Positions 5,602 through 17,531 of a DNA stretch of 31,750 nucleotides are shown here, piece by piece. The notes below the pieces were generated by a model. That model was not told where the DNA came from and did no database searches. It worked only from the letters and a program-made list of their open reading frames with translations. Source of the DNA: a virus. The stretch's first letter is position 1, and every line of letters begins with the position of its first letter. The stretch lies in the IMG/VR virus record IMGVR_UViG_3300021957_000170, positions 1-31,750 of that record; one strand, given 5' to 3'. The position numbers and the translations under genes were made by a program.

Positions 5602-6653
5602 ATGTATTAAGTTTATTTGACGGAATGAGTTGCGGAATGATTGCTTTGGATCGTTTAGGTATCAAGGTAGATAATTATTACGCCAGTGAGATTGATAAAT
5701 ATGCAATCCAAGTAAGCCAAGCCAATTACCCAGAGATTATTCAAGTGGGTGATATTACCAAGTTAGATTTATCTACATTGCCACAGATTGATTTGGTTAT
5801 GGGTGGTTCACCCTGTCAGGGATTTAGTTTTGCAGGTAAGCAGTTGGCGTTTGATGATCCAAGGTCAGCTTTGTTCTTTGAGTTTGTTAAATGCGTTAAA
5901 GAACTTAACCCTAAATATTTTTTATTAGAAAATGTAAAAATGAAGAAAGAATACTTAGATATTATTTCTGAGTACATGGGAGTTGAACCCATCTTTATAC
6001 AAAGTTCTTTAGTATCTGCTCAATCAAGACAGCGTTACTATTGGACTAACATTCCTAATGTTGAGCAACCTGAAGAGCGAGGGATTGTCTTGCGTGATAT
6101 TTTAGAAGATCATCCAAATGAAAATCCTGTTAAACACACAGAGCGTAATGCTAGACACCTCAAGCAGCTTGACGATAAATCACTTTGCATGACTGCAAGT
6201 ATGTACAAGGGTGCAGGTAACAATGATATGACTTTAGTGCCTCAACACATAGGAACAGCAGTTGATGTTAATGGACACGATGTATTAAAGCGTGTGTATT
6301 CGCCTGATGGTAAATCTCCAACAGTTAATACGATGGGCGGTGGTAACAGAGAACCGAAAGTGGTTATGGGTGCTTACAGAGGCCGTTACAACGAAGATGG
6401 TTCTACAAGTCAGAAGTTAGAGTTACGCAAAGACCAAAAAACCAATACTATTACTACAGTGCAAAAAGATAATGTTATAACCAAAGATGAAGTCTATTGG
6501 AGAAAGCTCACACCCTTAGAGTGCGAGAGATTGCAAACAGTACCAGATAATTACACGAACCATGTCAGCAACACTCAGCGTTATAAAATGCTTGGCAATG
6601 GTTGGACGATAGAAGTTATTGCACACATTTTACAGAACATGGAGTCAGTATGA
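5598..6653 (+). CDS. C5-cytosine DNA methyltransferase (Dcm-like)
   Basis: This 351-residue enzyme would transfer a methyl group from S-adenosylmethionine to carbon 5 of cytosine in a short DNA target. The conserved motifs appear in order: motif I FDGMSCG (about 7-13), motif IV GGSPCQGFSF with catalytic Cys73, motif VI ENV (111-113), motif VIII QSRQRYYW (142-149), a target-recognition region at about 160-295, motif IX LTPLECERLQTVPDNYT (about 304-320) and motif X LGNGW (about 333-337). All key residues are present, so it should be active. No partner endonuclease is next to it, as is usual for phage orphan methylases that evade restriction. The target site cannot be predicted. It is coupled to the integrase by a four-base ATGA overlap. 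Confidence 0.93.
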   Translation: MNVLSLFDGMSCGMIALDRLGIKVDNYYASEIDKYAIQVSQANYPEIIQVGDITKLDLSTLPQIDLVMGGSPCQGFSFAGKQLAFDDPRSALFFEFVKCVKELNPKYFLLENVKMKKEYLDIISEYMGVEPIFIQSSLVSAQSRQRYYWTNIPNVEQPEERGIVLRDILEDHPNENPVKHTERNARHLKQLDDKSLCMTASMYKGAGNNDMTLVPQHIGTAVDVNGHDVLKRVYSPDGKSPTVNTMGGGNREPKVVMGAYRGRYNEDGSTSQKLELRKDQKTNTITTVQKDNVITKDEVYWRKLTPLECERLQTVPDNYTNHVSNTQRYKMLGNGWTIEVIAHILQNMESV

Positions 6654-7504
6654 CATCTAGTATGACACTCAACGAATTATTTGACTTATACACAAAAGAT
6701 CTAAACAGGCGTGGTGCTAAGACTGTTAAACGCATTAAACAGTTTTACGACAACGACATCAGATTAGCCCTTGGCGATAGAGAAATAGACAGCATCATAA
6801 GAGGTGACGTGGCAACACTACACTTCGATGTGTCTGGAAGATCCCCCTATACTTCCAACAAGTGTCTCTCTATCCTCAAGGCTATGTTCAATTTGGCTAT
6901 CACTTTTAGCTACATAGAAAACAACCCGGCATTTAACATTGGCAAGAACCGAGAGATTAAACGCAAACGCTACTTAACCAACGAGGAGCTGGTTGAGGTC
7001 ACCGAGCAGCTTAACCTCTTGAGCAAGAACAAACGCCACAAGCAGGGTTGCGATTTTATATGGATGCTTATCTATACAGGGGCGCGAGTGGGGGAGATTA
7101 AAAACGCCAGGTGGTCAGACATCAAAGGCAACGCGTTAATCATTAAAGATCATAAGACCGATAACCTAGGCGATGATCGAATCATCTTTATTACTCCCGG
7201 GGTGCAAAAGATTTTAGATCGTTGCGACAAGTCAAGCGAGTATATCTTTAGCATTGGTTCACCCAGATACACATGGGACTTAATTAGAGAGCGCGTGGGG
7301 TGCGCGGATGCGCGGTTGCATGATATACGACACTCTTACGCATCGTGGTCGCTTGAGAAGATTAATCTCTCAGAGGTTGGTAACTTATTGGGCCATTCAG
7401 ATGTTGCTACCACTCAAAGGTATGCACACATCCATAAAGAGAAGGCGATAGGCAATGCCAATGTTGTGAGCCAACACATTAACAGCATCGTATCTAATAG
7501 ATAG
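6650..7504 (+). CDS. int: Tyrosine-family site-specific integrase
   Basis: This 284-residue protein starts at ATG 6650, overlapping the methyltransferase stop; an upstream in-frame ATG at 6602 lies inside that gene. The N-terminal half (about 5-95) is the SAM-like core-binding domain. The catalytic domain carries the full set: Arg146 (TGARVGEI), Lys169 (DHKTDN), His224-x-x-Arg227 (LHDIRHSYAS), His249 (LGHSD) and nucleophile Tyr258 (TQRYAH). It would integrate the phage genome at an attachment site, making the phage potentially temperate. No tRNA-like attP is recognisable beside it. The 3' half is unusually rich in GCGC and CGCG compared with its neighbours. The end abuts a convergent minus-strand gene with no spacer. 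Confidence 0.93.
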   Translation: MTSSMTLNELFDLYTKDLNRRGAKTVKRIKQFYDNDIRLALGDREIDSIIRGDVATLHFDVSGRSPYTSNKCLSILKAMFNLAITFSYIENNPAFNIGKNREIKRKRYLTNEELVEVTEQLNLLSKNKRHKQGCDFIWMLIYTGARVGEIKNARWSDIKGNALIIKDHKTDNLGDDRIIFITPGVQKILDRCDKSSEYIFSIGSPRYTWDLIRERVGCADARLHDIRHSYASWSLEKINLSEVGNLLGHSDVATTQRYAHIHKEKAIGNANVVSQHINSIVSNR

Positions 7505-7723: not shown

Positions 7724-7984
7724 TTACAAGTTTTCGTAATACTCTACCAATTTGTTTAAGTACCACCTGGCTTTTTCTAAGTCTTGGATGTTTGCATCCT
7801 TGTACTTATGCCTGTGTATATACTTAATAATTGATCCTTCTAAGTAAGATGGAAACTGATCGCCTAATTGCTGCTTGATGTAGTCAATACACTCCAAGCC
7901 ACCCTCATTGTAATGAGGCGGGTGATCCACCATATTATCTTTTGCATTGTCCCATTGTGTTGGGGTTGCATTATCTATACTCAT
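7724..7984 (-). CDS. DUF3310 protein (small phage nucleotide-metabolism-associated family)
   Basis: This 86-residue protein starts at ATG 7984; an ATG at 7990 directly abuts the AGGAG site and is too close to be used. The signature of DUF3310 is clear: VDHPPHYNEGG (19-29), LECIDYIKQQL, and then IIKYIHRHKYKDANIQDLEKARWYL (about 53-77). Members are common in phages, sometimes as part of nucleotide kinase proteins; biochemical function is not established. It is the first gene of a short minus-strand unit and is divergent from the excisionase-like gene at 8069. Confidence 0.85.
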   Translation of the reverse strand: MSIDNATPTQWDNAKDNMVDHPPHYNEGGLECIDYIKQQLGDQFPSYLEGSIIKYIHRHKYKDANIQDLEKARWYLNKLVEYYENL

Positions 7985-8008
7985 ATTCATCTCCTAATTA
8001 ATTAATAC

Positions 8009-14920: not shown

Positions 14921-14943
14921 CAACCTATTTAATAGCCCGTGAT

Positions 14944-15129
14944 TTATGCGATAACTTTTCCGTCTTTCATTACCTTCCCCATCTTATGTCCGTTGAAGGA
15001 TATTAAGAGCCAATTGCCCTCGCTGTCTTGTTGTGAGTGTTTCCTGCTTGGGTATTCAATGTCACCTGTAAGTCCGTAAACTGTTTTCATGTGCGTTGCG
15101 TATTTGTATTCTGCTATTTCGTAAGTCAT
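14944..15129 (-). CDS. Small hypothetical protein, paralogue of the 15339-15527 product
   Basis: This 61-residue protein is read from ATG 15129, with GGGAGA seven bases upstream, the start overlapping the stop of the 33-residue gene (TAATG). The C-terminal half shows YPSRKH, then NWLLISFNGHKMGKV; the 62-residue protein of 15339-15527 has IPSMTH then YWLLTYPCGKIVKTY at the same spacing, so both probably derive from a duplication. The fold is likely a small beta sheet. No function is known. It is the last gene of the minus-strand cluster and converges on the initiator gene. Confidence 0.65.
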   Translation of the reverse strand: MTYEIAEYKYATHMKTVYGLTGDIEYPSRKHSQQDSEGNWLLISFNGHKMGKVMKDGKVIA

Positions 15130-15230
15130 TACATATTCTCCCAATAGTTAGCGACTAACCATAGTATGAAAATTATGATTAGCCATATTAAAAAACCAAT
15201 ACCAAATATTTGCCCTATTATCTCAATCAT
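15129..15230 (-). CDS. 33-residue single-span membrane peptide
   Basis: From ATG 15230 the frame encodes MIEIIGQIFGIGFLIWLIII followed by FILWLVANYWENM. Nearly the whole peptide is one hydrophobic helix of about 24 residues, with a charged residue near each end. Its start lies in the last codons of the zinc-finger gene and its stop shares a base with the next start (TAATG). These couplings at both ends and the clean membrane profile argue for a real gene. It could be a membrane-active toxin-like peptide, a small holin-like or superinfection-exclusion protein. Confidence 0.6.
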   Translation of the reverse strand: MIEIIGQIFGIGFLIWLIIIFILWLVANYWENM

Positions 15231-15342
15231 AGCCTGAACCCATGCAATCGGTACAATGTTCTCCGTCTGGTAATGATCCTACGCCTTTGCAGTTAGGACA
15301 CTTACCCATGTAGGATCTAACCCATTTTTTTATCTTGCTCAT
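15223..15342 (-). CDS. 39-residue DnaJ-type zinc-finger mini-protein
   Basis: From ATG 15342 the frame encodes 39 residues: a basic start MSKIKKWVRSYMGK, then CPNCKGVGSLPDGEHCTDCM and GSGYD. This has two CxxCxGxG-like knuckles (C15-x2-C18-x-G-x-G and C30-x2-C33-x-G-x-G), the zinc-binding pattern of the DnaJ/Hsp40 central domain, without any J domain. ATG overlaps the upstream TGA (ATGA), and AGGAG lies eight bases upstream. It is well supported as a gene and could bind unfolded protein or host factors. Confidence 0.7.
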   Translation of the reverse strand: MSKIKKWVRSYMGKCPNCKGVGSLPDGEHCTDCMGSGYD

Positions 15343-15527
15343 GTGTATGACTCCTGGACAACTACATCGTTCTTGCGCTTGTCCTCGTAGGTTTTAACAA
15401 TCTTTCCGCATGGATAGGTTAAGAGCCAATAATCCTTTTTCATATCGTGTGTCATGCTTGGTATGTTTTCTTTTTTTGTGCTGAGTAACATCCTTGCCTC
15501 ATCAATCATTTCTTTATGCTGCGTCAT
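15339..15527 (-). CDS. Small hypothetical protein, paralogue of the 14944-15129 product
   Basis: This 62-residue protein starts at ATG 15527, directly after the TAA of the previous gene, whose final codons AAC-AAG-GAG supply the ribosome site. The N-terminal helix MTQHKEMIDEARMLLSTKK is followed by IPSMTHDMKKDYWLLTYPCG, sharing P-S-x-x-H and W-L-L-x4-G/C-K with the 61-residue protein encoded two genes further along. No function is known. Its TGA overlaps the next ATG. Confidence 0.65.
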   Translation of the reverse strand: MTQHKEMIDEARMLLSTKKENIPSMTHDMKKDYWLLTYPCGKIVKTYEDKRKNDVVVQESYT

Positions 15528-15743
15528 TTATAACTCCTTGTTTTTGTAGCTTGTTAATATAGATTTGTTTTTGTTAATAATATCCTGGAACTGTTTAGCA
15601 CTGATTCCAAGCTCGGTTAATACATCAAGGGCCTTGGGATTAATCAAGGCATTGAAGTGTGGGTGTGTAAAGATCTTATTGATCGACTCGTGTTCTTGTC
15701 GATTGATCTTTGGTTTTCTAAAGTTGTATCTGGTAACTGACAT
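15528..15743 (-). CDS. Small basic hypothetical protein
   Basis: This 71-residue protein starts at ATG 15743, sharing a base with the upstream TAA (TAATG), with GGGAGA before it. It has a basic N-terminus (TRYNFRKPKINRQEHES), a middle with KALDVLTELGISAKQFQD, whose LTELGIS-x-x-Q-F pattern resembles a helix-turn-helix, and ends in KNKSILTSYKNKEL. A DNA-binding role is possible but uncertain. It is coupled on both sides within the minus-strand cluster. Confidence 0.6.
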   Translation of the reverse strand: MSVTRYNFRKPKINRQEHESINKIFTHPHFNALINPKALDVLTELGISAKQFQDIINKNKSILTSYKNKEL

Positions 15744-16000
15744 TACGCTATCTCCCTTTTGTTTTTCTTGTGTAGTTTATAAAGATCCTTTTGTCGTTGA
15801 ATATCTTCTTGCATATCTTCCCAAATCTCGTTCTTAACTTCTTGCTTAACATCAGCATCAAGTTTGGTAACGATCTCAAAGTCAGATTTGTTTGGTGTCC
15901 ACCATTGGTGATTCACTGATTTGTATGCAGGTGATACTTCACCTTCAGTTTTCCATTGCCACTGAATAACACCATGTTCGGTTTTACTATATAGATACAT
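15743..16000 (-). CDS. Hypothetical protein, Trp-rich N-terminus and charged coiled-coil tail
   Basis: This 85-residue protein starts at ATG 16000, sharing a base with the upstream TAA and preceded by AGAGGT. The first half has several tryptophans (VIQWQWKTEGEV, then VNHQWWTPNKSD), suggesting a small beta domain. The second half is a highly charged helix (VKQEVKNEIWEDMQEDIQRQ, KDLYKLHKKNKRE) able to form a coiled coil. No known family is recognised. The reading frame extends to 16048, but the nearer start fits the gene overlap pattern of this cluster. Confidence 0.65.
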   Translation of the reverse strand: MYLYSKTEHGVIQWQWKTEGEVSPAYKSVNHQWWTPNKSDFEIVTKLDADVKQEVKNEIWEDMQEDIQRQKDLYKLHKKNKREIA

Positions 16001-16170
16001 TACGCTACCTCTACTTCTACTTCTGAGCGATCTTCTAAATGTTGCCATTCAAACTCATTCTCGCAAGCCTGGTCTTCTGCAGCTTCCCAATTATCAGCTT
16101 CAATATAGACCTCTTCTCTGATAATGGTTGTTCTAATAACTCTAAACTCTGTTAATGTGTCCGCGCTCAT
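16000..16170 (-). CDS. 56-residue acidic hypothetical protein
   Basis: From ATG 16170 the frame encodes 56 residues, MSADTLTEFRVIRTTIIREE, then VYIEADNWEAAEDQACENEF and an acidic end EDRSEVEVEVA. The pattern FRVIRTTIIREEVYIEADNWEEA is that of a short beta hairpin plus helix seen in small phage proteins. The start shares a base with the previous TAA, and the stop shares one with the next ATG. Strong negative charge could indicate a DNA-mimic or protein-inhibitor role; that is speculation. Confidence 0.6.
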   Translation of the reverse strand: MSADTLTEFRVIRTTIIREEVYIEADNWEAAEDQACENEFEWQHLEDRSEVEVEVA

Positions 16171-16454
16171 TACAGCACCTCCTTTTGTTTGGTAAAGGTT
16201 AAAGTTCCGCTAGGGTCTGAATATGTAAGCGTTGCATCATCTTTAAGAAAATGTAACTGGGCAATAAATTCATCATCTAAACCCCAATCATCCGAGTTGA
16301 TGAGCGTATAGAGAGAAACCTTTTCTTTTGGTACTTCTCCATAACCATCAACCCAATTAACTAGGTATATCTTGCGCTCTAGCTTAATTCTTTGTTTAAG
16401 TTCTTTAGCGTTTCCGTAAAAGCGTTTATTTCTAAAGTTAGTAATGATATTCAT
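16170..16454 (-). CDS. Hypothetical protein
   Basis: This 94-residue protein is read from ATG 16454, which shares a base with the TAA of the 45-residue membrane peptide gene upstream. The frame is open to 16493, but that start ignores the overlap. The sequence begins basic (NIITNFRNKRFYGNAKELKQ RIKLERK), then has beta-like segments (IYLVNWVDGYGEV, VSLYTLINSDDWGLDDEF, DATLTYSDPSGTLTFTKQ). No known domain is recognised. The mixed alpha/beta size is typical of phage early host-interaction proteins. Confidence 0.65.
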   Translation of the reverse strand: MNIITNFRNKRFYGNAKELKQRIKLERKIYLVNWVDGYGEVPKEKVSLYTLINSDDWGLDDEFIAQLHFLKDDATLTYSDPSGTLTFTKQKEVL

Positions 16455-16591
16455 TAGACCACCCACGATATGAGAGTTAACAAGGACACACAAAAGAATA
16501 TAATAATTATGTTCTCGGTGATTCTCCGCGCTTGGTCAGTCCATGGTTTTGGTTGTTGTGGTTTATGCAGTTTGTTTGCAAAGTCTTTCAT
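16454..16591 (-). CDS. 45-residue C-terminally anchored membrane protein
   Basis: From ATG 16591 the frame encodes MKDFANKLHKPQQPKPWTDQ, a basic proline-rich cytoplasmic part, then ARRITENIIIIFFCVSLLTL and ISWVV, a single membrane helix at residues about 27-45. AGGAGAG lies six bases upstream, a good ribosome site. The TAA overlaps the next ATG. The tail-anchor topology, with a soluble N-terminus, is unusual for a holin and suits a membrane-tethered regulator or exclusion factor. It is too short for common gene finders. Confidence 0.6.
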   Translation of the reverse strand: MKDFANKLHKPQQPKPWTDQARRITENIIIIFFCVSLLTLISWVV

Positions 16592-16621
16592 TTATCTCTC
16601 CTATAAAATGAGTTGGTTATA

Positions 16622-16654
16622 CCACGAAAGCCGAGCATAAGACTCGGCTAGTGG
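16622..16654 (-). terminator. Hairpin after the first minus-strand gene (possible attenuator)
   Basis: AGCCGAG (16629-16635) and CTCGGCT (16643-16649) form a seven-base-pair GC-rich stem with a seven-base loop, and CCAC/GTGG (16622-16625 and 16651-16654) can extend it. On the minus strand the stem is followed by only TTTC, a weak U-tract. It lies between the stop at 16672 and the next start at 16591, and would partly separate the first gene from the rest of the cluster. Confidence 0.5.
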
Positions 16655-16671
16655 ATTGTGTATTTGTTTAA

Positions 16672-16914
16672 CTAAGCTGCATTCTTAATTGCCTGTTTTA
16701 AAAAGAATTTCCAAGAGGTAAAACCTTTATCTTTTTCCTTTTCAATTAAATCTGAAAAACCAATTTCTTTTGGTTTCCAAATTTTTAAAGCAAGGTCAAT
16801 ATAGATTTTGATTAAGTCATGGTTGCCACCTAAGTCATGAATAACTATTTCATGGTCACCTTTATCATTGATTAAGAACCTTGTTGCTTGGTCTATATGG
16901 TATGTATTTCTCAT
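16672..16914 (-). CDS. Hypothetical protein, first gene of minus-strand cluster
   Basis: This 80-residue protein starts at ATG 16914, with AGGAGAG seven bases upstream; the earlier in-frame ATG at 16956 falls inside the promoter. The sequence MRNTYHIDQATRFLINDKGD is followed by EIVIHDLGGNHDLIKIYIDL and a basic-acidic C-terminal part (EIGFSDLIEKEKDKGFTSWK, FFLKQAIKNAA). A mixed alpha/beta fold is likely. No known family is recognised. It is the gene closest to the extended -10 promoter and is set apart from the others by a hairpin. Confidence 0.65.
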   Translation of the reverse strand: MRNTYHIDQATRFLINDKGDHEIVIHDLGGNHDLIKIYIDLALKIWKPKEIGFSDLIEKEKDKGFTSWKFFLKQAIKNAA

Positions 16915-16958
16915 TCTATCTCTCCTTTTAAATGGTAGCTTTTCTTGGCTACACAATA

Positions 16959-16986
16959 ATTATATCAAATAGAACGCACAATGCAA
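16959..16986 (-). promoter_or_regulatory. Extended -10 sigma70 promoter for the minus-strand cluster
   Basis: On the minus strand TGATATAAT (plus 16959-16967) is a perfect extended -10 element (TGnTATAAT). TTGCAT (plus 16981-16986) is a partial -35 at 16-base spacing. The leader to ATG 16914 is about 40 bases. The strong -10 suggests host RNA polymerase reads this cluster on entry or in the lysogen. Confidence 0.65.
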
Positions 16987-17063
16987 CTCTTTTCTACACT
17001 AATACCTAATTAAGTATGTCAAAATCTATAGGGGAATGTTGCGACATCGAGTAGAATTTTCGT
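16987..17063 (+). promoter_or_regulatory. Putative late-operon control region before TerS
   Basis: The 77 bases between the minus-strand promoter and TerS hold CTACACTAATAC (16994-17005), 11 of 12 bases identical to the motif at 5110-5121, and CTATAGGGG (about 17027-17035), which shares CTATAGGG with the promoter-like core there. The two elements are adjacent at 5110 but about 20 bases apart here. No good sigma70 pair is seen on the plus strand. A phage-specific late promoter is likely somewhere in this stretch. Confidence 0.4.
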
Positions 17064-17531
17064 ATGGAGAAGAAAGATTACAGTTACTTAATCGGTAAAG
17101 CTGGTCGTAAAAAGATTAAATTTAACGATGAAGACTTTGAAAACATTGAGAGATGGGCTGGTAATGGTTTGTCTGAAAAACAAATTGCAGAGCTGTTGAA
17201 CACATCAACTTCCACAATCTCTCGCAGAAAAAGAGAATTGGCACAATTTGATAACGCTTTAAAGAGAGGAAGAGCAAAAGCAATTGCTGCGGTGACAAAC
17301 GCGCTTTACACTTCAGCTCTCGATGGAAACACTACGGCCCAGATATTCTTTTTAAAGAACCGAAGCAGTGACTCCTGGATGGACAAAGCCGAGGTCAATC
17401 ACAACCTTAACCTTGCCGAGATCCTAGATACAGCAAAGAATCGTGTGATCGAGGGCAAAGTAGTAACTGAGCAGCTTGATTCACAGCGTGTCCTTTCAGA
17501 GGACGCGTTGCCAAACAAAAATACGGGCTAG
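17064..17531 (+). CDS. terS: Terminase small subunit
   Basis: This 155-residue protein recognises phage DNA and brings it to the large subunit. An N-terminal helix-turn-helix at about 37-57 (LSEKQIAELLNTSTSTISRR) is the DNA-binding domain. Then comes the oligomerisation helix region (RGRAKAIAAVTNALYTSALDG) and the phrase NTTAQIFFLKNRSSDSWMDK, the T-A-x-x-FFLK-x-R...W motif of TerS families in podoviruses and siphoviruses. There is no good Shine-Dalgarno sequence before ATG 17064. It is followed by a 162-base spacer and the large subunit. Confidence 0.88.
   Translation: MEKKDYSYLIGKAGRKKIKFNDEDFENIERWAGNGLSEKQIAELLNTSTSTISRRKRELAQFDNALKRGRAKAIAAVTNALYTSALDGNTTAQIFFLKNRSSDSWMDKAEVNHNLNLAEILDTAKNRVIEGKVVTEQLDSQRVLSEDALPNKNTG

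Follow-up and report, generated by a model that had tools for sequence, protein, structure and literature searches.

The leftward early operon of phage lambda is an opposing transcript of small accessory genes which carries recombination and integration genes. In E. coli phages and their satellites, P2/P4-type hotspots of about 1-5 kb are portrayed, in the part of the source cited here, as reservoirs of anti-phage systems (PMC9122126). Promoter/stem-loop elements (PeSL) are stated, in the portion of a further account used here, to shuffle genes in T4-type phages (PMC4503421), and for archaeal viruses genes under a conserved strong promoter are predicted to act in anti-defence, which the excerpt drawn upon presents as a hypothesis from early transcription (PMC11065993). 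Here, we describe a minus-strand cluster of ten very small frames at positions 14,944 to 16,914 of a 31,750-base stretch (the window), which constitutes the whole IMG/VR virus record IMGVR_UViG_3300021957_000170 and has a guanine plus cytosine (GC) content of 0.397. The cluster lies between TerS and a converging neighbour gene, and its plan is analogous to that of known phage accessory hotspots and to the gene shuffling of T4-type phages. Comparison of sequences indicates that eight of the ten frames are overlapping coding genes, that place and strand of the cluster are fixed, and that a leader recurs at its head. On balance, we favour the reading that the region is one operon, an accessory host-takeover or counter-defence module built of exchangeable mini-gene cassettes.

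An earlier note on this DNA, made from its letters, had listed ten minus-strand frames, and all of them are present, each starting with ATG; they are numbered o1 to o10 from the TerS side. Relatives were collected with o3, the neighbour gene and o7 as search queries, giving 90 viral loci. From these and the window, nine same or overlapping contigs were dropped, as were three (L052, L089, and L090) without TerS or the neighbour gene, leaving 79 loci, 57 of which, window included and near-duplicates kept, span both anchors, i.e., TerS and the neighbour gene. As near-identical contigs remain among the 79 loci, counts are not independent. Frames and their occurrence are as follows:

16672-16914, minus strand: o1, 80 residues, putative slot-1 cassette, ATG with AAAGGAGAG upstream; 1 of 79 loci, 1 of 57 spanning (the window)
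16454-16591, minus strand: o2, 45 residues, single membrane span in the C-terminal half; 32 of 79 loci, 26 of 57 spanning records
16170-16454, minus strand: o3, 94 residues, presence/absence cassette by comparison; 19 of 79 loci, 9 of 57 spanning; 88-96% identity across 14 aligned relatives
16000-16170, minus strand: o4, 56 residues, acidic (net charge -13), predicted beta-alpha-beta; 22 of 79 loci, 12 of 57 spanning
15743-16000, minus strand: o5, 85 residues, Trp-rich first half and charged tail; 4 of 79 loci, 4 of 57 spanning
15528-15743, minus strand: o6, 71 residues, basic; 43 of 79 loci, 31 of 57 spanning
15339-15527, minus strand: o7, 62 residues, predicted N-terminal helix and four strands; widespread, 71 of 79 loci, 52 of 57 spanning
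15223-15342, minus strand: o8, 39 residues, DnaJ-type CXXCXGXG microprotein; 25 of 79 loci, 21 of 57 spanning
15129-15230, minus strand: o9, 33 residues, single-span membrane peptide; widespread, 67 of 79 loci, 54 of 57 spanning
14944-15129, minus strand: o10, 61 residues, last gene; o10-like genes in 62 of 79 loci, 53 of 57 spanning

Nine genes, o2 to o10, follow one another without a gap through five TAATG overlaps (o2/o3, o3/o4, o4/o5, o5/o6, and o9/o10), one ATGA overlap (o7/o8), one overlap of 8 nt (o8/o9), and one abutting pair (o6/o7, TAAATG), the last two being beyond the list of the earlier note. The only uncoupled pair is o1/o2, with a spacing of 80 nt and a hairpin between the two genes. 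The note had also seen two single-span membrane peptides, which are o2 and o9 (19-residue hydropathy of 2.5 and 3.0, respectively), and a zinc knuckle; the protein concerned, o8, rather shows a DnaJ-type pair of CXXCXGXG motifs, not a classical zinc knuckle, and both motifs are visible although the match to Pfam PF00684 (E-value 3e-4, 21.4 bits) stays below the curated cut-off of 32.7. The cassette structure, two hairpins, and the linker described below are additions to the account given in that note.

Stop/start overlaps were counted between frames of at least 30 codons in the 57 spanning records (158,622 bp). The cluster strand contains 148 TAATG, 220 ATGA, and 9 TGATG overlaps, whereas the opposite strand has 7 TAATG, 13 ATGA, and 6 TAGTG. 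Five Markov randomisations of one strand gave means of 4.8 TAATG, 19.8 ATGA, and 2.4 TGATG, so that the excess over random expectation is about 31-fold for TAATG and 11-fold for ATGA. Open frames (ATG frames of 30 or more residues) cover a mean of 0.85 of the cluster strand, with a lowest value of 0.45, versus 0.34 of the other strand, and in every one of the 57 records the cluster strand has the higher coverage. Ratios of non-synonymous to synonymous changes (pN/pS) were obtained from pairs differing at 3-25% of bases, which are not independent of one another. In their own frame, they are 0.15 for o2, 0.15 for o3, 0.10 for o4, 0.15 for o6 (299 pairs), 0.19 for o7, 0.27 for o8, 0.27 for o9, and 0.31 for o10, while in other frames they are at least 0.91, except for the reverse frame mirroring third positions (0.19-0.50), which contains stops. 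As judged by these ratios, o2 to o4 and o6 to o10, i.e., eight frames, are under purifying selection; for o6 this is not clean in the pair of the window and its relative L042 alone (0.92). The value for o5 is 0.35 in a single pair, and for o1 ribosome site, position, and codon score suggest coding. One might suspect that the frames are artefacts, or the antisense of a gene on the plus strand, as they are short, o1 lacks partners for the selection analysis, and o5 has one pair; overlaps, own-frame selection, and strand coverage all speak against such an origin and contradict it for eight genes, and we consider it highly improbable. Three genes, o2, o9, and the neighbour gene, escaped a simple gene caller.

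Place and strand of the cluster are kept in all 57 spanning records, in which the locus between the anchors measures 1.1-4.5 kb and varies in content. The gene-order comparison that the earlier note had proposed finds the order o2 [o3][o4][o5] o6 o7 [o8] o9 o10, gaps allowed, in 32 of the 57. The note had named the absence of these frames or overlaps from related phages as what would speak against the cluster; frames, overlaps, and promoter recur, and o1 is the member for which no relative was encountered in the viral contigs searched. To check for bias by the bait, we considered the 20 contigs that only the neighbour-gene search had retrieved, one of which ends inside that gene; 17 of the 19 assessable ones carry relatives of o6 and o9 (including L021, the same contig as L042), and L037 and L038 share only an o10-like gene. 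Also, o7 occurs among small genes in the stretches of L052 and L089, where neither TerL nor TerS nor the neighbour gene is recognised. For the neighbour gene itself, called an initiator gene in the note, this name did not hold, as it has no PHROG match at 0.01, a Pfam match which is sub-threshold and unrelated, and no match to an initiator. In the distant phages MW202483 and DSL-LC05, opposing clusters of small genes lie between replication genes and terminase, and MW202898 has just three opposing genes there. In INPHARED, nothing was found for the four genes searched (o3, o6, o7, and o10) or for the DNA of the region, and crude tiling of open reading frames (ORFs) in two Kiloniella loci, L115 and L118 (TerL about 40%), the only Kiloniella loci so tiled, showed no comparable array.

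Some observations concern the borders of the locus. TerL identity among relatives is mostly 83-95%, with 71% as the lowest value, whereas TerS (17064-17531 in the window), adjoining the far steadier TerL, ranges from 30 to 92%; TerS itself therefore seems to be exchanged beside the operon. In L032 and like loci, a gene of 410 residues on the TerS strand (family 86, 6 loci), which by eye resembles a ParB/DNA methyltransferase fusion, is located between TerS and the operon, at the edge of the hotspot. At the other border, operon and converging neighbour gene end 23 nt apart (14921-14943) and a terminator scan finds none there, so that their transcripts may overlap.

At the head of the operon, the order is promoter, a short hairpin starting about 6-8 nt past the -10 element, CATTT, and a strong ribosome site. 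The promoter lies exactly where the earlier note had placed it. Signals at the head and behind slot 1, with hairpins compared through predicted folds, are:

16959-16986, minus strand: extended -10 promoter, TTGCAT-16-TATAAT (read from 16986 to 16959), with TG one base ahead of the -10 element
16935-16952, minus strand: leader hairpin directly past the promoter, predicted stem GTAGC/GCTAC
16622-16654, minus strand: second hairpin, in the o1-o2 spacer, resembling a terminator though its T tract is poor

Nine of 57 records, the window among them, share the same top-scoring promoter site, equally far from TerS, and other subgroups have other sites; best upstream scores average 10.6, versus 9.2 inside the regions. 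When 76 loci with TerS were scanned with a pattern that itself demanded CATTT and a ribosome site near TerS, the leader was found in 35, representing 28 distinct strings and 14 distinct hairpin stretches. The hairpin folds in 27 of the 28 strings, the exception being L022, with folding z-scores from -0.7 to -3.5. Its stem is GTAGC/GCTAC in the vicinity of the window and CCTAGG/CCTGGG or CTCGGG/CCCGGG in another subgroup. In L030 to L032, a like promoter-leader stands immediately ahead of o2, beyond the stretch scanned. A hairpin like the second one precedes o2 in 10 of 32 o2 loci; by eye, its stem is AGCCGAG/CTCGGCT in the window and AACCCTC/GAGGGTT in L023 and L024, and thus four of seven pairs are changed on both sides with pairing kept. 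An operator palindrome near 17010 (TACTTAATTAGGTA) seemed by eye not to be conserved across subgroups and is not claimed. Rfam gave no matches at gathering scores.

Comparison with relatives shows a replacement in slot 1 and a clean presence/absence of o3. L042, the closest relative of the window by most genes, has an unrelated frame of 61 residues in slot 1, flanked by a leader and a second hairpin that are the same as in the window. In L042, L045, L049, L051, L057, and L074, o3 is absent and o2 runs straight into o4, whereas window and L013 have o2, then o3, then o4. The two junctions around o3 in the window are:

16452-16464, minus strand: o2/o3 linker GGGTGGTCTAATG, with the stop/start overlap
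16168-16184, minus strand: o3/o4 linker AAGGAGGTGCTGTAATG

Relatives with a window-type o2 mostly show GGGTGATCTAATG ahead of o3, o4, or other genes, and what follows o3 in relatives is mostly AAGGAGGTGATCTAATG. In 11 of 19 loci, o3 is flanked on both sides by an identical 16-18 nt ending in TAATG (mostly AAGGAGGTGATCTAATG), and these direct repeats contain ribosome site and TAATG; in the remaining eight, 0-12 nt are identical on both flanks. Two classes of linker ahead of TAATG, nnG[AG]T[AG]GCG and nnGGTGATC, make up the most frequent ending in 16 of 44 upstream family labels, where upstream ORFs missing from the ORF list were pooled under one label. At TAATG junctions elsewhere in the same contigs they occur in 0 of 40 cases (Fisher 7.5e-6), a p-value which serves only as a guide, as the classes were picked after viewing the data and the control frames are longer (60 vs. 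28 codons) and not collapsed by family.

These patterns might be explained without a site of exchange, if TAATG linkers reflected selection for ribosome sites and coupling, and if turnover were ordinary recombination filtered by function. This explanation is compatible with a counter-defence role of the genes, and we give it a substantial chance, albeit below even. It agrees with the complementarity of GGAGGTGATC to the 16S rRNA tail, and a strong ribosome site alone could account for the recurrence of the linkers. Viral contigs hold the 17-mer AAGGAGGTGATCTAATG in 38 stretches: 16 belong to the group, ten of these with two copies, and 22 lie outside it with one copy each; in the window, the o3 flanks have only TAATG in common. 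On the other hand, the distribution of the linker classes inside and outside the locus, post hoc as their choice was, speaks against this explanation, as do the same 16-18 nt on both o3 flanks in 11 loci, and GAGGTGGCG, which is outside the 16S complement, is found after 8 different upstream families. Among the entries listed for the literature searched, none reports a ribosome-site/TAATG linker or a short boundary sequence acting as exchange site.

With regard to function, the earlier note had recognised no member of the cluster, and none of the ten indeed has a trustworthy match in Pfam or PHROGs. AlphaFold2 models of o4 (predicted local distance difference test, pLDDT, 85.7; predicted template-modelling score 0.48) and o7 (pLDDT 87.1) match no solved structure significantly; for o7, none of 532 PDB matches (E-values up to 10) reached 0.001, none of the 50 listed was convincing, and no viral model matched at 0.001. 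A relative of o4 in L006 matches PHROG 1307, 'RNA polymerase inhibitor', with an E-value of 0.002, and an o4 profile weakly matches Gp2 in a search with one sequence, the E-value of which therefore means little; an identity of o4 as T7 Gp2-like RNA polymerase inhibitor was not upheld by PDB sequence or fold searches. Candidate identities of o3 as SAM-domain protein or Csm2 relative were dropped at E-values of just 0.059 and 0.48, respectively.

More hints come from 62 representative operon proteins of the relatives (chosen from families on the cluster strand that have a low pN/pS or large ORFs, the window's own families and family 52 being left out), which match 23 PHROG families at 0.001 with one member each. 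An Ocr-like anti-restriction protein is encoded in the operon of L003 (L003:1062-1370; PHROG 2568, E-value 6.7e-6), and single representatives match the Srd anti-sigma and 'decoy of host sigma70' PHROGs. A DNA methyltransferase and an endonuclease VII/HNH PHROG are also matched, by eye probably by larger inserts (L048:3177-3809 and L045:10425-11006, respectively). Pfam recognised one domain of unknown function, and PADLOC gave one match, weak at 6.5e-4, among the 62. The operons of these relatives are hence no store of known defence systems, and on family matches and PADLOC result together we tentatively favour counter-defence or host takeover over stored defence.

Apart from these matches, family 52 (57-66 residues; 11 loci, near-duplicates included: L020, L022-L024, L027, L028, L035, L081, and L085-L087) and family 38 (14 loci; L053, L065, L083, and others) contain peptides whose beginning resembles the DUF2800 nuclease of the phage itself; for most peptides of family 52, what follows is akin to the Walker A region of Sak4. 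In six contigs that permitted the comparison, protein identities are 50-71% and DNA identities only 0.47-0.69, and thus these peptides are no fresh copies. They may be decoys or relics.

The phages of this group are uncultured and marine, and the phage of the window is podovirus-like. Among phage records, its large terminase (TerL) has 49% identity to the best matches (Manatee Spring podoviruses, DSL-LC05) and 36% to that of epsilon15. The window also encodes a DUF2800/PD-(D/E)XK nuclease, a Sak4-like AAA protein, a primase/helicase, and two methyltransferases, and outside the cluster, on the plus strand, lysis genes for a holin (PF11351) and a peptidase M15 (PF08291). A DUF3310 gene at 7724-7990 is the only minus-strand gene recognised besides the cluster, and a scan for tRNAs found none. 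Among genome contigs, a TerL scan gave one close match (89% TerL), a contig of 19 kb from a metagenome-assembled genome (MAG) labelled Candidatus Pelagibacter. Its GC content of 0.389 is at odds with the label, judged by the GC content of SAR11, and Candidatus Pelagibacter is not accepted as host from a single MAG contig with mismatched GC.

An integrase gene (PF00589, E-value 4e-13) raises the question of whether the operon is a lysogeny module, expressed from the prophage to exclude superinfecting phages or to bring about lysogenic conversion, in which case o2 and o9 would act at the envelope. The two single-span peptides would fit such a module, as would the orientation of the operon, which opposes the late genes as the earlier note had stated, and the distant relative DSL-LC05 carries a 'repressor protein C' annotation in its opposing cluster. 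However, the integrase gene lies outside the cluster, at 6602-7504, none of the ten genes matches a repressor family with a trustworthy score, and the TerL scan of genome contigs yielded no close match other than the mislabelled-looking MAG contig. We therefore regard a lysogeny module as rather unlikely.

Returning to the favoured reading, an accessory host-takeover or counter-defence operon, we infer one-operon transcription, early timing, a counter-defence role, and recombination through linkers. In the earlier note, a placement of this kind had been presumed typical of early host-takeover or lysogeny genes. Host RNA polymerase would read the extended -10 promoter early after entry, transcribing from 16986-16959 toward the replication-gene side, and a short hairpin followed by a strong ribosome site would form the start of the mRNA. 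Translation would pass from gene to gene via the stop/start overlaps, the ribosome site being inside the end of the preceding gene, and each small product would bind a host or defence target. The ribosome-site/TAATG linkers would be the points at which genes are gained, lost, or swapped, with short direct repeats that might let the annealing recombination of the phage (DUF2800-type nuclease, Sak4-type protein) change a cassette with coupling intact. A link between annealing recombinases and phage mosaicism is made in the portions of two reports cited here (PMC3945230, PMC5499656). In its widest form, a tentative and somewhat unlikely one, the locus would be an expandable counter-defence array in which the in-frame linker, i.e., ribosome site and stop/start overlap, doubles as exchange site and some of the plug-ins possibly are decoys.

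Besides the reservations on linkers given above, several findings weigh against the favoured reading. Neither sequence nor predicted fold yielded a function for the window genes; the Ocr-like match is limited to one relative, a PDB search with that L003 protein gave nothing useful, and rescanning 27 of the 62 representatives one by one did not reveal which proteins gave the Srd and sigma70 matches. As to the operon head, the leader pattern is unmatched in 41 of the 76 loci scanned, and 10 of 57 records have no upstream promoter site scoring above the regional mean. Order is not strict either, as an o10-like gene precedes o7 in 22 of 57 records, two of 57 hold an o10-like gene only, and L008 has o3 ahead of o2. 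Finally, the integrase implies that the module may be expressed from a prophage.

A fixed and easily recognised locus yields dozens of compact gene families which are co-located and turn over. If the counter-defence role is true, anchor genes and linker would permit a simple harvest of anti-defence microproteins from metagenomes. If exchange at linkers is true, a mini-gene ending in the linker could be spliced in or out, and its transcription and translation would be immediate, making the operon a natural plug-in system; the linker would show how short translation signals shape gene shuffling.

Among described systems, the lambda leftward operon differs in that recombination and integration genes are here on the plus strand. 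With the archaeal-virus set, as far as the excerpt portrays it, this locus shares genes without assigned function under a recurring promoter and a proposed anti-defence role, but that proposal rests on early transcription whereas ours comes from sequence. The PeSL elements, reportedly the work of Arbiol in 2010 and Comeau in 2014, are similar in two respects: promoter and stem-loop recur as a composite, and the gene content is shuffled. In contrast to what the portion used here describes for them, the junction in our case is a ribosome-site/TAATG linker inside the operon, with the promoter-hairpin at its head, and their high density is not reached, as the window holds a single promoter-hairpin, that of the head, plus the hairpin behind slot 1; moreover, the present phage is podovirus-like and not T4-type. 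The closest described plan is that of the P2/P4-type hotspots, which in the part of the source considered are likewise small loci of high gene turnover between two conserved genes. Unlike these reservoirs, the present operon gave one weak PADLOC match among relatives' representatives, and its genes are very small and overlapping; an Ocr-like protein, encoded in the operon of L003 and not found in the window, is what a relative contributes to the comparison.

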